A DNA stretch of 64,000 bases from Bacteroidota bacterium (GTDB taxonomy: Bacteria; Bacteroidota; Bacteroidia; Chitinophagales; LD1). The notes beneath the pieces are model-generated. The model was given only the letters and a program-made list of their open reading frames with translations, was not told the origin of the DNA and did not search any database. Where the stretch lies: positions 1 to 64,000 of the forward strand of contig CANJZE010000004.1 of assembly GCA_947479455.1 (NCBI GenBank), in the 5' to 3' direction. This document shows positions 53,657 through 63,181 of the stretch, piece after piece (position 1 is the stretch's first letter; each line of letters begins with the position of its first letter). The position numbers and the translations under genes were made by a program.

Positions 53657-55777
53657 ATGAAAAAACTCTTTACACTTTCCATTATCCTTTCTGTTTTCGC
53701 TTCTTCATTTTCGCAAATTACTTACAACATTACCGATGTGCCCTCGGCACCTTCTACACAACGAATAGCACAAGATACTTTTCCTTTGCCGGCTGTTAAC
53801 TTCGGTAACAAAGGAGCCAATCAGGTTTATGATTTCAGCAATCTTGTTTTATTTAAATACGATACGGCTGAATTCAAAACGCCTACTAACAGTCAACTGA
53901 CTACTTGCCCTAATGCAGATGTTGCTACTACAGCTGATGGAATAAATTTTCTTTTAACCAACACCGATAACGCCAATAATAAATTAACACTTGAGGGTTT
54001 TGAGGGACAGCTAACACCGGGCAACACTGTTTCGGCAGCTTATTCTACCAAGCCCGATTTATTTCGCTTTCCATCAAACTACTTAACCACCTTTGCGGGT
54101 ACCGCATATCTGCAAAAAACAGTACCGGGTAGTCAAGTTGGTCAGCCTTTGGCTACTTCGGTTGAATTAACTATCAATACTACTTATACAGATACAATTG
54201 ACGGTTGGGGGAAAGTAATTACACCGGTAGGTGCCTATAAATGTTTGCGCAAGCAACGGAAGGAAACAACTAATACAGTAATCAGAGCACTTGTGTTTGG
54301 CTTTTGGCAAAACGTTTCAAACACTACTCAAACAACGGTTCGTTATACTTATGTAACTAAGGAAGCGAAAGGAAGTGTAGTCAATTTTAATTACGATACC
54401 GCCAGTGTGTTGCAATCGGTTAGCTGGTCAATGGTTCCGCCAACAGCACCGGTGGCAGATTTCAGTTTTGTAGCAGGTGCGGGCGGCTCAGTTGCGTTTA
54501 CCGATTTGTCAGACTTCTATCCAACTTCATGGGCATGGACATTTGGCGATGCAGGAACTTCTACTTCTCAAAATCCTACACACGTTTACGCAACTAACGG
54601 AACTTATAATGTTTGTTTGATTGCTACCAATGCAGGAGGTAGCAGTGTTCAGGTTTGTAAGCAGGTTGTAGTAACCAATGCAGCCGTTCAACCTGTAGCG
54701 GCTTTTACATGGGCTAATCCAAGTGGTGGCTTAGTAAACTTTACCGACCAGTCAACTAATACTCCTACTTCATGGGCTTGGGATTTTGGTGATGGCGGAA
54801 ATTCGAGTTCTCAAAATCCTTCGCATGTTTATACAGCAAACGGTGCGTATTATGTTTGTCTTACAGCTACCAATACTGCCGGAAGCAATACGCTTTGTGA
54901 CAGTGTTCATGTAACTAATATCTCTGCTCAAAACAATGCACCGGTAGCGTTTGATGATACTGTTAGTTTATTGCAGGCTAGTTCTACTATAATTTTTCAC
55001 GTAGCGTCAAATGATGTTGACCCCGATGGTGATAACATTTGTATGAACAGTGTATGGGGTTCGCCTTATGTAACTGAATATATTGGAGGCAGTTGCGACA
55101 TGGTAGGCATAACTGTAGATTCGACCTTTATCGGCACGGATACCGCCTGGTACAGTCTCTGCGACAATGGCACTCCCGTGCTTTGCGATACTGGGATGAT
55201 AATTTTCACCGTAAATCCAGATCCTGCTTTGTTGCCAGTGGCGGGATTTACGGATAATACTTTCACTTACGCAACCTGCGTTGGTGCGTTATTAACTAGC
55301 ACTTCTTCTAGTGCCGATTCTTTAGTTTGGGGTTTTCACCCATTAAATTCCGATCCTGATTCAACATACACGAACACAAATACAGTTCAGTATTACGGTA
55401 TGTATTCACTTGGAAACAACATTCAGGTTTGCTTAACTGCCTACAATCAATTTGGAGTTTCTACGCACTGCGATACAGTAACTATTTCATGTATTACTAA
55501 AATATCCGAAGTTGAACTTTCTTCAATTCATATGTATCCAAATCCTGCAACTTGTTTCCTCACCATCGATATACGCCATAACAATGATGAAGCGGTTCAT
55601 AGTGATTCATCAATTGAAATTTACAATGCACTTGGGGAAAGAGTTAAATCTGTAAACACCAGAAACAAAATAGTAACCTTTGCTGTTGCTGAACTCACTA
55701 ACGGAGTTTACCTCGCAACCCTTGTTGATGCAACAGGAACGAGAAGAATGCTTGGAAGATTTGTGGTGGAGAAATAA
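53657..55777 (+). CDS. T9SS type A cargo with two PKD domains
   Basis: 706 residues. Signal peptide ends SSFSQ (about 20). Residues 21-260 form an unknown beta-rich domain starting ITYNITDVPSAPSTQ and including NFGNKGANQVYDFSNL. Two PKD domains follow at about 264-342 (TSWAWTFGDAGTSTSQNPTHVY) and 344-420 (TSWAWDFGDGGNSSSQNPSHVY). A cadherin/Ig-like segment is at about 426-525 (NNAPVAFDDTVSLLQASS, SNDVDPDGDNICM). The type A sorting domain is at about 625-706 (MYPNPATCFLTIDI, IEIYNALGERVKSV, LTNGVYLATLVDATGTRRMLGRFVVEK). Expected to be secreted or surface-anchored via T9SS; the ligand is unknown. Confidence 0.9.
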   Translation: MKKLFTLSIILSVFASSFSQITYNITDVPSAPSTQRIAQDTFPLPAVNFGNKGANQVYDFSNLVLFKYDTAEFKTPTNSQLTTCPNADVATTADGINFLLTNTDNANNKLTLEGFEGQLTPGNTVSAAYSTKPDLFRFPSNYLTTFAGTAYLQKTVPGSQVGQPLATSVELTINTTYTDTIDGWGKVITPVGAYKCLRKQRKETTNTVIRALVFGFWQNVSNTTQTTVRYTYVTKEAKGSVVNFNYDTASVLQSVSWSMVPPTAPVADFSFVAGAGGSVAFTDLSDFYPTSWAWTFGDAGTSTSQNPTHVYATNGTYNVCLIATNAGGSSVQVCKQVVVTNAAVQPVAAFTWANPSGGLVNFTDQSTNTPTSWAWDFGDGGNSSSQNPSHVYTANGAYYVCLTATNTAGSNTLCDSVHVTNISAQNNAPVAFDDTVSLLQASSTIIFHVASNDVDPDGDNICMNSVWGSPYVTEYIGGSCDMVGITVDSTFIGTDTAWYSLCDNGTPVLCDTGMIIFTVNPDPALLPVAGFTDNTFTYATCVGALLTSTSSSADSLVWGFHPLNSDPDSTYTNTNTVQYYGMYSLGNNIQVCLTAYNQFGVSTHCDTVTISCITKISEVELSSIHMYPNPATCFLTIDIRHNNDEAVHSDSSIEIYNALGERVKSVNTRNKIVTFAVAELTNGVYLATLVDATGTRRMLGRFVVEK

Positions 55778-57463: not shown

Positions 57464-59206
57464 CTACTCGCTGACAATAAATTTCTTGGTGTAAACGATG
57501 CCATTCACCGACAACCTGGCGAAATAAATTCCAGAGGAAAGTTTTTCTCCATTACCGATTACGATTTCATGTGTGCCCTCTACTTCCTTTTCATTATCCA
57601 TTTGAGCAACCAATTTGCCTGTTACATCCATAATACAAGACTCCACATTAGATGTGGTAGTCAAGGTATAAATCAATTTGCCGTTGTTGTTCATAGGGTT
57701 AGGCATTATTTCGAAATAAATTCCCTTGGCAGAATTATCATTTATAGCTGTGGATGTTGACAATGGTTCAGAAGTATACATGTAATACCACAATTGCATT
57801 TCGCCATTTGTTTGCGTACTAAAATACAAAGTACTGCCGGTAGTGTTGTTATACGTAGCTTTAGAAACTAAGCCAGCCTTTTTATTACCATATTTACCAA
57901 ATTTAATCGGGAGAAGTTCAGGCCAATAAGCAATTGGAGGATGTTGCCATTTCCAGATACCTGAACCATCACCACCTTCGTAGTAACAGTTGCCATAGCT
58001 TTCAATTCCCGCACCATGATAAATAGTGTCATCTAAATTTAAGTTTCCAAGTGTATCGCGCAAAAACAAGTCAAATGAAGTACCCCACTCGTGTGTATGA
58101 CCTGCAGCCATCCACAAGTAGCGTGTTTCCTTCTGCATATTATTAACTGGGTCGTCAAAAATTTCGGTTTGTACGCCTGTTGGAATTACAAGCGAAATTG
58201 TTTGTTGCGAAAGCTGCGACTTCATTTCAATTGTAGCAGCGCTCCTTGTTTTATAATAAATATTAAAATAAAAATCGCAAGGAAGTACGAAGGCAGCGTT
58301 GAAGTTTTTGATATGGTAGTTCATATCCAAAATTGTTTTTTGATCCCAAAACAGAGCAGTTCCTGTAGGAAGTACCAAGTTAGCATCGGTTTGCCAAGAA
58401 GCAGTTAACGATTTATCACCATCAAACGAGGTATTGAATAATGCTACTTTACCTAAGTTATCAACGTCAGCCGCATTTGAATTTGAAGCGGCCGCGACAT
58501 CATCAAATTTGAAAAGCAGAAAGTGATGCGATTGCTGATTCATAAAACCATCTATTTCGGTAACCTCAGGCAGAGAAGGAAAATTTATTTCTTGTTGCTG
58601 TAAATATTCTTGTTCAATTTCACCGGTTATAGGTAAAAAGATAGGTCCCATACGCAACTGAATTCCTTCTCCGGCTGCTGGTTTCGGTGGTTTTTGAATA
58701 AACCGGTCAATCCCGTTTGCCGCCAAAGAGTCATAAAACTGATTTACTAACCCCCAGTTAGGTTGAGGCTCGCTGCCTGAATAACTTAGTTTAGCTCCAA
58801 AGGTAATCCACTGACGAATGAATTCAATTTCCTTTTTGCTCAACGGTTGCCCGCTTATATCATTCATTGCCGCACCTTCGTTTGCATCAATAGACAAATC
58901 AGTGTCAAATGAAGCACCAGCAATTTTGCGGAGTAAAAAACTAAAATATGGATGTTGCTGTTTCACTAACTTTTCGTTCTTAGCAACAGAACTTGCATTG
59001 GAGGCTGCCACATTGAACAAAGCAGCATGAACTTGAGATTGTGTGCCATCGAACTTCAAAGAAGCTGATGCATCAATTGCAGTTGCACTGTGACAAGTAC
59101 TGTTCCGACATTTGGTATTCAGCGTGGTATAAACACGTTGAAAAGGAGTTTGTGCGTTTGCCCCGAACAACACAAACATAAAAACAAGGGTATAAAATTT
59201 TTTCAT
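57464..59206 (-). CDS. T9SS type A cargo: cytochrome c-like domain plus copper type II monooxygenase (PHM/DBM-like) core
   Basis: 580 residues from the Met at 59206 (signal peptide ending GANAQ). Residues about 25-140 look like a planctomycete-type cytochrome c domain, with a CX4CH heme site (C33, C38, H39) and LSKKEIEFIRQWITFGAKL. Residues about 185-480 show in order the copper ligands of peptidylglycine/dopamine-type monooxygenases: HH (H227, H228), H298 in DMNYH, HTH (H370, H372) and Met470 in GEMQLWYYMY. The last 75 residues form a type A sorting domain (PNPMNNNGKLIY...LSSGIYFARLSVNG). Predicted secreted or surface enzyme that may hydroxylate an organic substrate with a heme electron donor; this is inference. 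Divergent from a metallopeptidase-like gene. Confidence 0.8.
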   Translation of the reverse strand: MKKFYTLVFMFVLFGANAQTPFQRVYTTLNTKCRNSTCHSATAIDASASLKFDGTQSQVHAALFNVAASNASSVAKNEKLVKQQHPYFSFLLRKIAGASFDTDLSIDANEGAAMNDISGQPLSKKEIEFIRQWITFGAKLSYSGSEPQPNWGLVNQFYDSLAANGIDRFIQKPPKPAAGEGIQLRMGPIFLPITGEIEQEYLQQQEINFPSLPEVTEIDGFMNQQSHHFLLFKFDDVAAASNSNAADVDNLGKVALFNTSFDGDKSLTASWQTDANLVLPTGTALFWDQKTILDMNYHIKNFNAAFVLPCDFYFNIYYKTRSAATIEMKSQLSQQTISLVIPTGVQTEIFDDPVNNMQKETRYLWMAAGHTHEWGTSFDLFLRDTLGNLNLDDTIYHGAGIESYGNCYYEGGDGSGIWKWQHPPIAYWPELLPIKFGKYGNKKAGLVSKATYNNTTGSTLYFSTQTNGEMQLWYYMYTSEPLSTSTAINDNSAKGIYFEIMPNPMNNNGKLIYTLTTTSNVESCIMDVTGKLVAQMDNEKEVEGTHEIVIGNGEKLSSGIYFARLSVNGIVYTKKFIVSE

Positions 59207-59295: not shown

Positions 59296-60810
59296 ATGCA
59301 AAAAATGTTTCCACACCGCTTGTTTATTTTGTTGATGGTAGTATCAAACTTTCAAGTTTCTGCGCAAACCATTTGCATCTCGCCCTTGCTACCACCTTAC
59401 TTTTTGCCAATAGACACGAATGCTATGTTAGATGGGACGAGAAGTGGTAGTTACAAAATTCCTTTTGACACTATTAGGTTTAATCAAGCCTTGGGTACGC
59501 AGGCTTTTGACGTGGTAATGGTTGTGGACGGAGTAATTAACAATACTCAAATAGGTTTGGCCGACAGATATGTAGATTCTCTTGTGGCTCGGCTGCAAAC
59601 CATAGCGCAATACAATCCTCGTTTTAAGTATTTTAATTTTTACAGAATAGCGAAACTATCGAATGAAGAGGGTGCTGCTTGGGGTTACATGGGAGATACT
59701 ACAGTTGATAATCGTTACGGAAGTAGGTTCAATGCGTTTGGTCTACCCCGCTTAATTCTGCCTGAAAAATATGATACCCTTTTTGCCGATGTAGGTGAGT
59801 TTGTTCCGCAACACGATTTGGTTTTAAATCTTTGCTTCGATAAAAAATATGGTGGTTCAGGATGGAGTTTATATGATGGAAGGAAAGTGGCAAGTTTCAC
59901 GCTTGATGAACAAACGGGTTGGCACTTGGGCGATGAAGTTGCCATACATGAAATGCAGCACATTATGCCTTTTGCCGGTCATGGTTTCTTAGGCGATGAA
60001 TATGAAGACACACTCGCCTGCCCGATTTACGACACCCTTCCTTTACAATATCTAACTAGTCCAAATTTCACCGGAGATACGTTGAACAACAGAAAATGGG
60101 AACATTGTATGAGCGAGCCCGGAGTTGGTTTCTTCCCTAACGCTGGAATTTGTCCAGGGAATTATCGTCCAACTACAAATTGCGCTATGCATCAGGTTTA
60201 TGATATGCCTCCTTTTTGTCCGATATGTCGCGAGCATTCAACTGCCTATTTTGATAGCCTCTTCAATCCTGTTTATAACGTAAGTCCAACTCCTGCTGTG
60301 TTTACAGGTAATTATACCTTTAGTGTTCAAGTGGATACGCCCTCAGTAAATACCTTTCGGTATCAATGGTTGCTTGATGATACCATAGTTGCATCAACGA
60401 CCGATTCATTTTCAGTTGATTTTTCCTTACTTAACCACGGCACCAATCACACGTTGAAATTTGTTTGCACCGATGTGGACCCACATATTATTGATACCAA
60501 TTTACGCAGACCATGGATTACTCATTGGAATTTGCTAACTCAGGATTCAACCGTTGGCGTTACTACTTCTGAAAATGAAGTTTTTGAAATTTCCCTTAAT
60601 CCTGCCAAAACCGAAATCTTCGTTCAGTCTGTTTTTGCCCTTCAAACAATTTCTATTGTAAACATTTTGGGCCAAATTGTTTACAAAAAAGAAGTTGGTT
60701 TAGCGCTTTCCCAAAAAATTGATATTTCATTTCTTTCCAAAGGCTTATACATTTTTACAACTGACTCTCCTGCTTCAAAAAAGATAGTTCGAAAATTCTT
60801 AGTGTTCTAA
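59296..60810 (+). CDS. T9SS type A cargo: M64-like metallopeptidase
   Basis: 504 residues. Signal peptide ending VSAQ (about 24). Residues about 68-260 contain DVVMVVDGVINNTQIG, then HEMQHIMPFAGHGFLGDEYED: HExxH zinc ligands H218 and H222 with catalytic Glu219, and D234-E235-Y236 matching the xxDEY of M64 (IgA peptidase-type) enzymes. Cys-rich segments follow (CMSEPGVGFFPNAGICPGNY, PFCPICREH). About 280-395 is an Ig-like domain. The C-terminal 75 residues are a type A sorting domain (LNPAKTEIFVQS, ISIVNILGQIVYKKE, LSKGLYIFTT). Substrate unknown. It is divergent from the copper-enzyme-like gene with about 90 bases between. Confidence 0.82.
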   Translation: MQKMFPHRLFILLMVVSNFQVSAQTICISPLLPPYFLPIDTNAMLDGTRSGSYKIPFDTIRFNQALGTQAFDVVMVVDGVINNTQIGLADRYVDSLVARLQTIAQYNPRFKYFNFYRIAKLSNEEGAAWGYMGDTTVDNRYGSRFNAFGLPRLILPEKYDTLFADVGEFVPQHDLVLNLCFDKKYGGSGWSLYDGRKVASFTLDEQTGWHLGDEVAIHEMQHIMPFAGHGFLGDEYEDTLACPIYDTLPLQYLTSPNFTGDTLNNRKWEHCMSEPGVGFFPNAGICPGNYRPTTNCAMHQVYDMPPFCPICREHSTAYFDSLFNPVYNVSPTPAVFTGNYTFSVQVDTPSVNTFRYQWLLDDTIVASTTDSFSVDFSLLNHGTNHTLKFVCTDVDPHIIDTNLRRPWITHWNLLTQDSTVGVTTSENEVFEISLNPAKTEIFVQSVFALQTISIVNILGQIVYKKEVGLALSQKIDISFLSKGLYIFTTDSPASKKIVRKFLVF

Positions 60811-60920: not shown

Positions 60921-61033
60921 GTAGTAACTCGAAGTAAATACTTCAGAAAGAGATTAAACCATTGGAAGCAAACGGAAATTATTCACTCATTCCTATACAT
61001 TCGCCACTTCGTTTTAATTGCAACCATTCTACC

Positions 61034-63181
61034 ATGAAAAAAACTTCCTTCTTCGATTTTCTTTTTTGCATTGCCACATTTATTACTCCGCTGCTTTCAG
61101 TTGCTCAAAACACCAATTCAGAATTTCCTGTTATCAATCCTGAAAACTTAACCATTGTTCGCGATAGCTTTGGCATTCCACATATTTTTGGAAAGACCGA
61201 TGCTGAAGTAGCCTATGGTTTAGCCTGGGCAAATGCAGAGGATGCTTTTTATGTAACGCAGGAATTGCTTGCCACTGGAAAAGGTTTTATGGGAAGAAGA
61301 GACGGTATAAACGGAGCTAAGAATGATTTTTTTGTTCATGCTATTGGAGCAAGAGAGTTGGTTGATAAAAATTTTGATAAAGATTTATCACCGGAGTTCA
61401 AAAAATATCTCGATGGTTTTGTGCAGGGCATAAACGCTTATGCTAAAGCGCATCCGGAGGAAGTGAAGGTGAAAAAATTGTTTCCGGTTACCTCAAAAGA
61501 TATTGTGACTTGCTATGTGGTAATTATGTCGGCTTTGAGCCGCGTGCAAAACCAGGTAGGCGATGCTGTAGCCGGAAAGTTTGACCACGTGCCACTTGTT
61601 TTTCCGAAGCATACAGCGCCTAACGTAGGTTCTAATGCTTTTGCACTCAACAGCACCAAAACGGTTGACGGCAAAACTTATCTATGCATCAATCCACATA
61701 TGGGTATGGATGGATTGTTATCATTTTATGAAGCTCACCTTCAAAGTGAAGAAGGTTTGAACATTGAGGGTTGTATGTTTCAAGGCAGTTCTTCGCTTGC
61801 CATGGGAGTGAACGAACACCTCGGCTGGGGAATGACCTGGAATAATTTTGACCGCGTGGATGTGTTCAAACTGAGCATGAATCCTAAAAAGAAATTGGAG
61901 TATGAATTTGACGGCAACTGGTTAAAGCTCGAAAAGAAACCTGTTTGGCTGAAAGTGAATTTGAGCAAGAAAGGAAAGTTTGTTTTACCCGTGAAGAAGA
62001 TGACCTATTGGAGCAAATATGGAGCTACTCTCAAAAGCGACAAAAGTGAAAACTACTATGCTATTCGGTACCCGGCAAACACCACCGTACGAACGGCAGA
62101 GCAGCTTTACAAAATGAACAAGGCAAAAAATTATACTGAATATTGGGATGCCATTCGTATTCATGCTATAACCCTTTTCAATATTGTATATGCCGATGAT
62201 AAGGATAACATTTTTTACATCCACCACGGCATGATTGCAGAGCGTGATACACTGATTGATTGGAGTGGTTTAGTAGCAGGCAATACCTCGAAAACCCTTT
62301 GGACTAAGCTGATTCCACTCGACAGCATGCCCAAAACAATTAATCCTTCTTGCGGCTATGTTTATAATACCAACAACACTCCTTTTCACGCCTCTTCTAC
62401 CGAGTGTAACGAAAATGGATATTGCTACACTTCGCGCAAACTGATGGATGAACGCCCGGGAGATAACAATCGTGCGGAAAGATTTAAAGAATTGATTTCA
62501 GTGAAGAATAAATTCAACTTGCAGGATCTGCACGATTTGAAATTTGACGTTACGCTTTCGCGCAATGGCACCGTTGCCAAATCATTGAAGCCGTTGTTTA
62601 ATTTAGATGTAAAAAAATACCCCGACCTAAAAGAGCCGCTGGAAATTTTGAATTCTTGGAATCGTATTGCAGATATTCACGAATATGCACCCACGCTACT
62701 CGGTTTATGTATACAAACCGTTTTCAAAAAGTATGATTATGATGATGCCAATTTTGTTTTAGGCTTTAATGTAAAGGAAGATGAGTGGGTAAGCACACTA
62801 CGTGGTGCTTGCGATACACTAAAAGCATATTTCGGAAGTATAAAAGTAGAATGGGGAACAGTAAACCGTTTAATACGCGGTGATAAAGATTTACCTTTAC
62901 GCGGTTTTCCGGATGTGTTAAGCCCGAGTTATCCTAAGCGAGTAAAAGGTCGAATGGCGTTTAAAGTAGAGCATGGCGATACTTATACCATGTTTGCCTC
63001 ATTCGGTAAAAACGGTGTAGAAAAAATATCGGCACTTCAACCGCTCGGCAATTCGCTGAATCCTAAAAGCAAACATTACACCGACCAAATGGAAATGTTT
63101 ACAAAACAAGAAATGCGTCCGTTGAGTTTAAAAAAGGAAGATGTTTTGAAACGGGCAGAGAGTGTTTATCACCCGCGGTAG
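61034..63181 (+). CDS. Penicillin acylase-family (Ntn hydrolase) protein
   Basis: 715 residues from the ATG at 61034 with a signal peptide ending LSVAQ (about 25). Begins NLTIVRDSFGIPHIFGKTDAEVAYGLAWANAEDAF, as usual in the family. The autocatalytic cleavage and nucleophile site is VGSNAFALN with Ser200. LSSFYEAHL-type and GVNEHLGWGMTWNNFDRVDVF blocks and the late GDNNRAERFKELI, LRGACDTLKAYFG and GRMAFKVEHGDTYTMF follow. Exported, it should mature in the periplasm into two chains and cleave an amide, for example acyl-homoserine lactones or other N-acyl compounds; substrate not predictable. Confidence 0.92.
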   Translation: MKKTSFFDFLFCIATFITPLLSVAQNTNSEFPVINPENLTIVRDSFGIPHIFGKTDAEVAYGLAWANAEDAFYVTQELLATGKGFMGRRDGINGAKNDFFVHAIGARELVDKNFDKDLSPEFKKYLDGFVQGINAYAKAHPEEVKVKKLFPVTSKDIVTCYVVIMSALSRVQNQVGDAVAGKFDHVPLVFPKHTAPNVGSNAFALNSTKTVDGKTYLCINPHMGMDGLLSFYEAHLQSEEGLNIEGCMFQGSSSLAMGVNEHLGWGMTWNNFDRVDVFKLSMNPKKKLEYEFDGNWLKLEKKPVWLKVNLSKKGKFVLPVKKMTYWSKYGATLKSDKSENYYAIRYPANTTVRTAEQLYKMNKAKNYTEYWDAIRIHAITLFNIVYADDKDNIFYIHHGMIAERDTLIDWSGLVAGNTSKTLWTKLIPLDSMPKTINPSCGYVYNTNNTPFHASSTECNENGYCYTSRKLMDERPGDNNRAERFKELISVKNKFNLQDLHDLKFDVTLSRNGTVAKSLKPLFNLDVKKYPDLKEPLEILNSWNRIADIHEYAPTLLGLCIQTVFKKYDYDDANFVLGFNVKEDEWVSTLRGACDTLKAYFGSIKVEWGTVNRLIRGDKDLPLRGFPDVLSPSYPKRVKGRMAFKVEHGDTYTMFASFGKNGVEKISALQPLGNSLNPKSKHYTDQMEMFTKQEMRPLSLKKEDVLKRAESVYHPR

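Follow-up and report, generated by a model that had tools for sequence, protein, structure and literature searches.

We consider it probable that a gene in the analysed stretch of DNA (64,000 nucleotides, hereafter the window) encodes a noncoupled binuclear copper monooxygenase of the PHM/DBM fold class, one that is secreted and has a c-type heme domain of its own for electron entry. The enzyme class is already known; what is new is its heme-fused, probably secreted form, and the architecture is widespread rather than singular. The first-pass annotation had read the product as a T9SS-exported protein with a cytochrome c-like and a copper monooxygenase-like part, and as a description of architecture this is supported by the relatives, the fold, the motifs and the sorting domain.

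Results

The gene occupies positions 57464..59206 on the minus strand, as do all parts of it given below. According to the reading frame and its translation, it opens with ATG at 59206, closes with a stop at 57464 and yields 580 residues, laid out as a signal peptide (residues 1-18, 59153..59206), a cytochrome c-like domain (residues 19-145, 58772..59152), a monooxygenase core (residues 169-483, 57758..58702) and a T9SS type A sorting domain (residues 500-578, 57473..57709). The signal peptide was read by eye from the hydrophobic start; its cleavage is likely to occur before Q19, which is conserved in 47/47 rows of the alignment of homologues. The residue numbers proposed earlier (H227, H228, H298, H370, H372 and M470) are all correct in the translation, and its CX4CH site is C33-RNST-C38-H39. 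The assembly with the gene comprises 3.76 Mb in 70 contigs. The labelled relatives (n=11) are MAGs named Bacteroidetes, Bacteroidia, Chitinophagales or Chitinophaga, and one isolate name refers to Lake Pavin; the source may thus be of Chitinophagales type and perhaps lives in fresh water.

Conservation was assessed over 51 rows, obtained from 67 matches above 60 bits by removing three truncated edge copies and merging identical sequences. The proposed CuH-site ligands H227-H228 (58523..58528) and H298 (58313..58315) are histidines in 51/51 rows and fall on the HH and on the H of QxHY, respectively, in a PF01082-positive sister family. The proposed CuM-site ligands H370-T-H372 (58091..58099) and M470 (57797..57799, within an EM motif) are invariant in the 50/50 rows reaching those positions; the former coincide residue by residue with the HTH of PHM, and the latter with its EM. 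The assignment of these residues to CuH or CuM is carried over from the animal enzymes. The distances in the window protein are 71 (H227 to H298), 72 (H298 to H370) and 98 (H372 to M470), all within the family ranges of 62-87, 66-97 and 70-98 (50 rows), the last at the upper end. Thus, the claim of six PHM/DBM-type copper ligands in order and at fitting spacing holds, and conservation across the 51 rows speaks against a chance origin of the copper and heme motifs, which we reject. Apart from those of the heme motif, cysteines are poorly conserved (C310 in 25/51 rows, C407 and C524 in one row each).

Among the Pfam and NCBIfam models, the sorting domain is the only one above its cut-off in the window protein; Cu2_monooxygen (PF01082), Cu2_monoox_C (PF03712) and the cytochrome models do not match it even at E <= 1. 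Since Pfam sees the T9SS tail alone, the assignment of the core rests on the relatives and the fold. The comparison with these families suggested in the first-pass annotation therefore has a divided outcome: the window protein itself has no match, while its relatives do. PF03712 is found in 21 of the 43 close relatives at E <= 0.1 and misses the other 22, and one relative with 35% identity to the window protein (G038:C41) exceeds the curated Pfam cut-off. Against PDB sequences, the window protein alone gives 0 matches; the core profile gives 13 at E <= 1, all of them PHM chains, at E-values of 0.0097-0.39 that make the match weak, and in this alignment HTH falls on HTH and EM on EM.

The structure prediction, also proposed earlier as a check, places the core on PHM and on dopamine beta-hydroxylase (DBH). 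The AlphaFold2 model of the protein has a mean pLDDT of 85.4 and a pTM of 0.76. Ranks 1-26 of VIA-align are PHM or DBH with Z 16.2-20.1, including the best PHM match (5wja_D, Z 20.1, rmsd 3.2, 268 aligned residues, 13% identity) and DBH (Z 17.6); the next row (Z 9.6) covers the sorting domain only. The best 29 Foldseek matches of the full model in the PDB are likewise all PHM or DBH (E 3.3e-11 to 2.3e-7), and unrelated beta-rich proteins with low TM-scores appear from rank 30 (E 2.2e-6). Considering that such proteins also reach low Foldseek E-values, it is the rank and the gap in Z that carry weight, not the E-value. The model supports a two-domain PHM/DBM fold for residues 169-483. Accepting this predicted fold, the protein has what characterizes the PHM/DBM superfamily: a three-histidine site (HH, H) and a site of HxH and Met, in this order, in a two-domain core.

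The cytochrome c-like domain is supported by the conserved C33, C38 and H39, by the pLDDT of its model (mean 91.3 for residues 19-172) and by a match to the sister profile. A CX4CH heme-like site had been noted ahead of the core, and C33-RNST-C38-H39 (59090..59110) is indeed there; of the rows covering its position, 47/48 have the C..CH motif, with four, three or two residues between the cysteines in 34, 8 and 5 rows. Other proteins carry heme c at CX3CH and CX4CH sites. The candidate distal axial ligand is M114 (58865..58867), a methionine in 39/49 rows reaching the position, with MPP in 23/23 sister rows; it precedes the conserved QWI..GA helix (124-135), where an axial ligand would sit. In alignment A1 (43 of the 51 rows, leaving out L013, L020, L022, L033 and L079 as incomplete and L035, L075 and L083 as long or without heme), the segment 106-121 in window-protein numbering contains Met in 34/43 rows, His instead in 8/43 and neither in 1/43. 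This pattern takes at least 3 changes on the core tree, and seven of the eight rows with His group in a single clade (SH-aLRT 99). In L024, L025, L027-L030, L070 and L085 the candidate methionine is absent and a histidine is found one or two residues on; a natural Met-to-His swap of the axial ligand is possible in these rows.

At sequence level, what points to a cytochrome c in the N-terminal domain is its motif, the putative axial methionine and a set of weak matches to families (its profile finds the cytochrome end of the sister subfamily at E 9.6e-6; Cytochrome_CBB3 in 3/43 members, best E 0.0038). The motif makes a strong case for this assignment, and the structure search lends weak support to the fold: Foldseek with this domain alone gave 6 matches at E <= 10 and none at E <= 0.001, and the sole entry listed by VIA for the heme-domain model is hydrazine synthase, with a Z of 7.2, a level that the VIA notes call common. 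Nothing significant was found with the heme-domain profile among PDB sequences, where the first entry is FoxE (E 0.3).

The sister subfamily has a member in the same genome (G000 contig C7, L113:7997-9595). Its alignment (A4) was hand-picked and contains 23 of 33 matching ORFs, with the same-genome member re-read from L113; those left out are L053, L087, L090, L094 and L095 (nearer to A1 by score), L054 and L057 (apparently incomplete), L065 (divergent), L086 (a 295-aa Reeler protein) and L088 (heme motif damaged). At E <= 0.1, PF03712 is found in 23/23 members, PF01082 in 21/23 and the T9SS tail in 22/23; the cytochrome end is recognized as Cytochrome_CBB3 in 14/23, Haem_bd in 5/23 and Cytochrom_C in 4/23. 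The heme motif is present in 23/23 members, a count that is conditional because the rows were hand-picked; it is found in 32 of the 33 unselected ORFs. The profile comparison between the window subfamily and the sister one gives E 2e-13 over 236 columns, and the six copper ligands are in register when read by eye from the printed alignment. In L113:7997-11090 the sister protein is followed by an AhpC/TSA peroxiredoxin and by a T9SS protein that combines a CX4CH motif with a Reeler domain.

The sorting domain exceeds the cut-off of both models describing it (PF18962, 34.7 bits against 27; TIGR04183, 36.3 bits), and the genome encodes the T9SS sortase PorU (NF033707, 1293.5 bits; cut-off 420 bits), a combination that identifies T9SS type A cargo. 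We conclude from these sequence features that the protein is probably secreted. The genome also has two over-cut-off matches of Cytochrom_C_asm. With proteins for cytochrome c assembly as well as PorU encoded, it is feasible that the protein receives its heme in the periplasm and then leaves through the T9SS.

The gene neighbourhood is a weak clue to the substrate. The monooxygenase cluster is present in 20 of 21 contexts (the window and 20 loci), and the commonest neighbours identified are D-Ala-D-Ala ligase (6), LuxC-like acyl-CoA reductase (6), adenosylhomocysteinase (5) and M20 peptidase (4); a recurring secreted or electron-transfer partner gene was not found among these commonest neighbours in the 21 contexts. 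In 6/21 contexts, the monooxygenase is immediately preceded on its own strand by the LuxC-like gene, ~50-130 bases upstream (L100:7592-10453, L106:8179-10948, L108:7260-10033, L109:6997-9765, L110:8404-11194 and L116:7262-10058), that of the window not being among them; PF05893 is over the cut-off in 5/5 scanned LuxC-like genes. We do not build on this link, because four of the six contexts belong to one genus and the counterpart in the window genome lies elsewhere on the contig, at a distance of ~65 kb. Other genes near the monooxygenase in the window encode T9SS-tailed proteins (53657-55777 and 59296-60810), a PKD/Big_9 and an IgA peptidase M64-like protein. The product of 60962-63181 belongs to the Penicillin amidase family, with a partial match to a PvdQ-type acylase model far under the cut-off of that model.

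PF03712 was found in 28 and the core profile in 29 of 296 Bacteroidota genomes that are at least 90% complete; in the 60-genome set of relatives, PF03712 was found in 39. The phylum-wide sample was searched with a copper-core profile that lacks the heme domain, and 29 of the 35 matches listed were examined (the others are the window itself and 5 without a locus). The C..CH motif and the six ligands occur together in 29/29 of these ORFs; as they were found by the copper core alone, the heme and copper sites are kept together. A crude pattern flagged a T9SS-like tail in 8/29, which suggests that the fusion of heme and copper domains is wider in occurrence than T9SS export. Among the 33 matching ORFs of the earlier set, 32 have C..CH; one of the 33 is a Reeler-domain protein that lacks copper motifs. 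The first-pass description of the arrangement as not a textbook one thus needs qualification: members of the class in Bacteroidota commonly have the fusion (29/29; 32/33), and it is not peculiar to this gene. The PHM/DBM class is known mostly from animals, as was also stated there; still, the Pfam copper-monooxygenase models already match bacterial proteins. A bacterial cytochrome c/PHM-type fusion was not among the matches listed by a literature search whose coverage mostly leaves out subscription papers, so its absence from the literature is unproven. A plasmid collection contained no match to the window protein and one to the sister protein. Tandem pairs of the heme-copper monooxygenase are found in several relatives (L117:9886-13559, L116:8352-11967 and L118:7502-10970).

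There are exceptions to the joint occurrence. Two ORFs have intact copper motifs and an altered heme site: L083:94-2328 (G055), where C..CH is lost, and L088:1714-5244 (G014), where it reads CTSYH and PKD-type domains are also present. Either the heme is dispensable at times, or these paralogues switched their donor, or the draft genomes contain assembly errors. The one homologue examined outside Bacteroidota, from the actinobacterium Nonomuraea, has the copper motifs and PF03712 and no C..CH; as this single homologue does without the heme motif, the heme is not obligatory to the fold.

Discussion

In the animal enzymes ascorbate serves as the cosubstrate or reductant, CuM binds O2 and CuH relays electrons, and it is still debated whether the role of ascorbate is purely that of an electron source or includes a reaction with the oxygen intermediate at CuM (PMC11363018). 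For the window protein we propose the following mechanism. The protein would be exported by Sec, heme would be attached in the periplasm by the cytochrome c assembly system of the genome, and the folded protein would then be exported by the T9SS, whose sorting domain and PorU are observed, to be attached to the surface or released. H227, H228 and H298 (CuH) together with H370, H372 and M470 (CuM) would bind copper and form the O2-activating centre; here the ligands are observed and the fold is that of the model. The heme would take single electrons from an outside donor and pass them to CuH and on to CuM, in place of the ascorbate of animals. Finally, as the fold class suggests, O2 at CuM would abstract hydrogen from an extracellular substrate and hydroxylate it. 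The joint conservation of the two sites supports the linked heme as the putative natural electron donor.

One alternative concerns the source of electrons. The protein could be a true PHM/DBM-class monooxygenase reduced by a small extracellular molecule (ascorbate, a quinol, reduced flavin or a phenolic), with the heme domain serving docking, sensing, stability or the like. This accords with the use of ascorbate by the animal enzymes, with the intact copper motifs of L083 (no C..CH) and L088 (CTSYH) and with the Nonomuraea homologue lacking the heme motif; nevertheless, we find it rather unlikely, considering that the heme and copper sites are joint in 29/29 ORFs and the heme motif is kept in 32/33 of the earlier set, which argues for a coupled role. 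Still less probable is a copper-binding surface protein without oxygenase activity, i.e., one for copper sequestration or a cuproprotein scaffold. In its favour, we know of no activity for any member of the family; however, the invariant Met ligand and the two-site layout seem to exceed what copper storage needs.

The top structural matches are to PHM, and this might suggest a strict peptidylglycine alpha-hydroxylating enzyme acting on the C-terminal glycine of peptides. We regard this as very improbable. R240, N316 and Y318 of PHM are the contacts of the peptide carboxylate. In the register of the alignment between the core profile and PHM, the R240 position (368) is R in 0/50 rows (S 14, T 13, A 10, Q 7, N 3, G 1, V 1, Y 1) and the N316 position (472) is N in 0/50 (L 33, V 9, I 7, G 1), which makes peptide amidation unlikely; the Y318 position (474) is Y in 35/50 rows. 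Furthermore, DBH is matched as well (Z 17.6), and the Pfam scan of the ORF, where just the T9SS tail is over the cut-off, reveals no lyase domain, although PHM and the lyase are separate proteins in some animals.

Returning to the heme-fused monooxygenase as the preferred reading, it is tempting to propose a broader one: an ascorbate-independent, heme-wired, extracellular branch of the PHM/DBM class in Bacteroidota, in which a tethered one-electron donor drives both coppers and which lineages tune by exchanging the axial Met for His and by varying the Cys spacing. We put this forward tentatively, as somewhat short of an even chance. If it is true, the branch is a natural experiment on electron entry into a two-copper centre and on the need for ascorbate in its cycle; with a fixed one-electron heme donor, if that is the case, electron entry could be timed and counted directly. 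The observations also add many bacterial proteins to a class otherwise known mostly from animals and green algae, about half of the close relatives (22/43) escaping the Pfam copper-domain model at E <= 0.1, and point to extracellular oxidation in Bacteroidota.

Comparison with known systems

PHM (1phm, 1sdw, 5wja) shares with the window protein the two-domain core fold, the six copper ligands in order and the HTH and EM motifs in register. At ~13% identity, the window protein differs in having a cytochrome c-like domain in front and a T9SS tail behind, and its family lacks the equivalents of R240 and N316; PHM has several disulfides. Dopamine beta-hydroxylase (4zel) shares the core fold (Z 17.6 over 268 residues); its N-terminus is a DOMON domain, in the place taken by the cytochrome c-like domain in the window protein. 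Members of the class in green algae are mentioned in PMC6919629 and PMC3494510.

The closest arrangement is that of the Bacteroidota proteins of A4 (CXXCH-MPP cytochrome, Cu2_monooxygen, Cu2_monoox_C, T9SS), which resemble the window protein in domain order, the six ligands and the heme motif, and differ from it in the canonical CXXCH, the MPP axial motif, the copper domains recognized by Pfam and QxHY replacing NYH. Residues 672-801 of hydrazine synthase (5c2v_D) resemble the heme-domain model (VIA Z 7.2, rmsd 3.8, 107 residues, 22% identity), although it is a different enzyme and the match is weak (Foldseek E 1.6). Cellobiose dehydrogenase and LPMO have unrelated folds and a b-type heme and are classically separate proteins; what they share with the proposed enzyme is the idea of a cytochrome that feeds electrons to a copper oxygenase.
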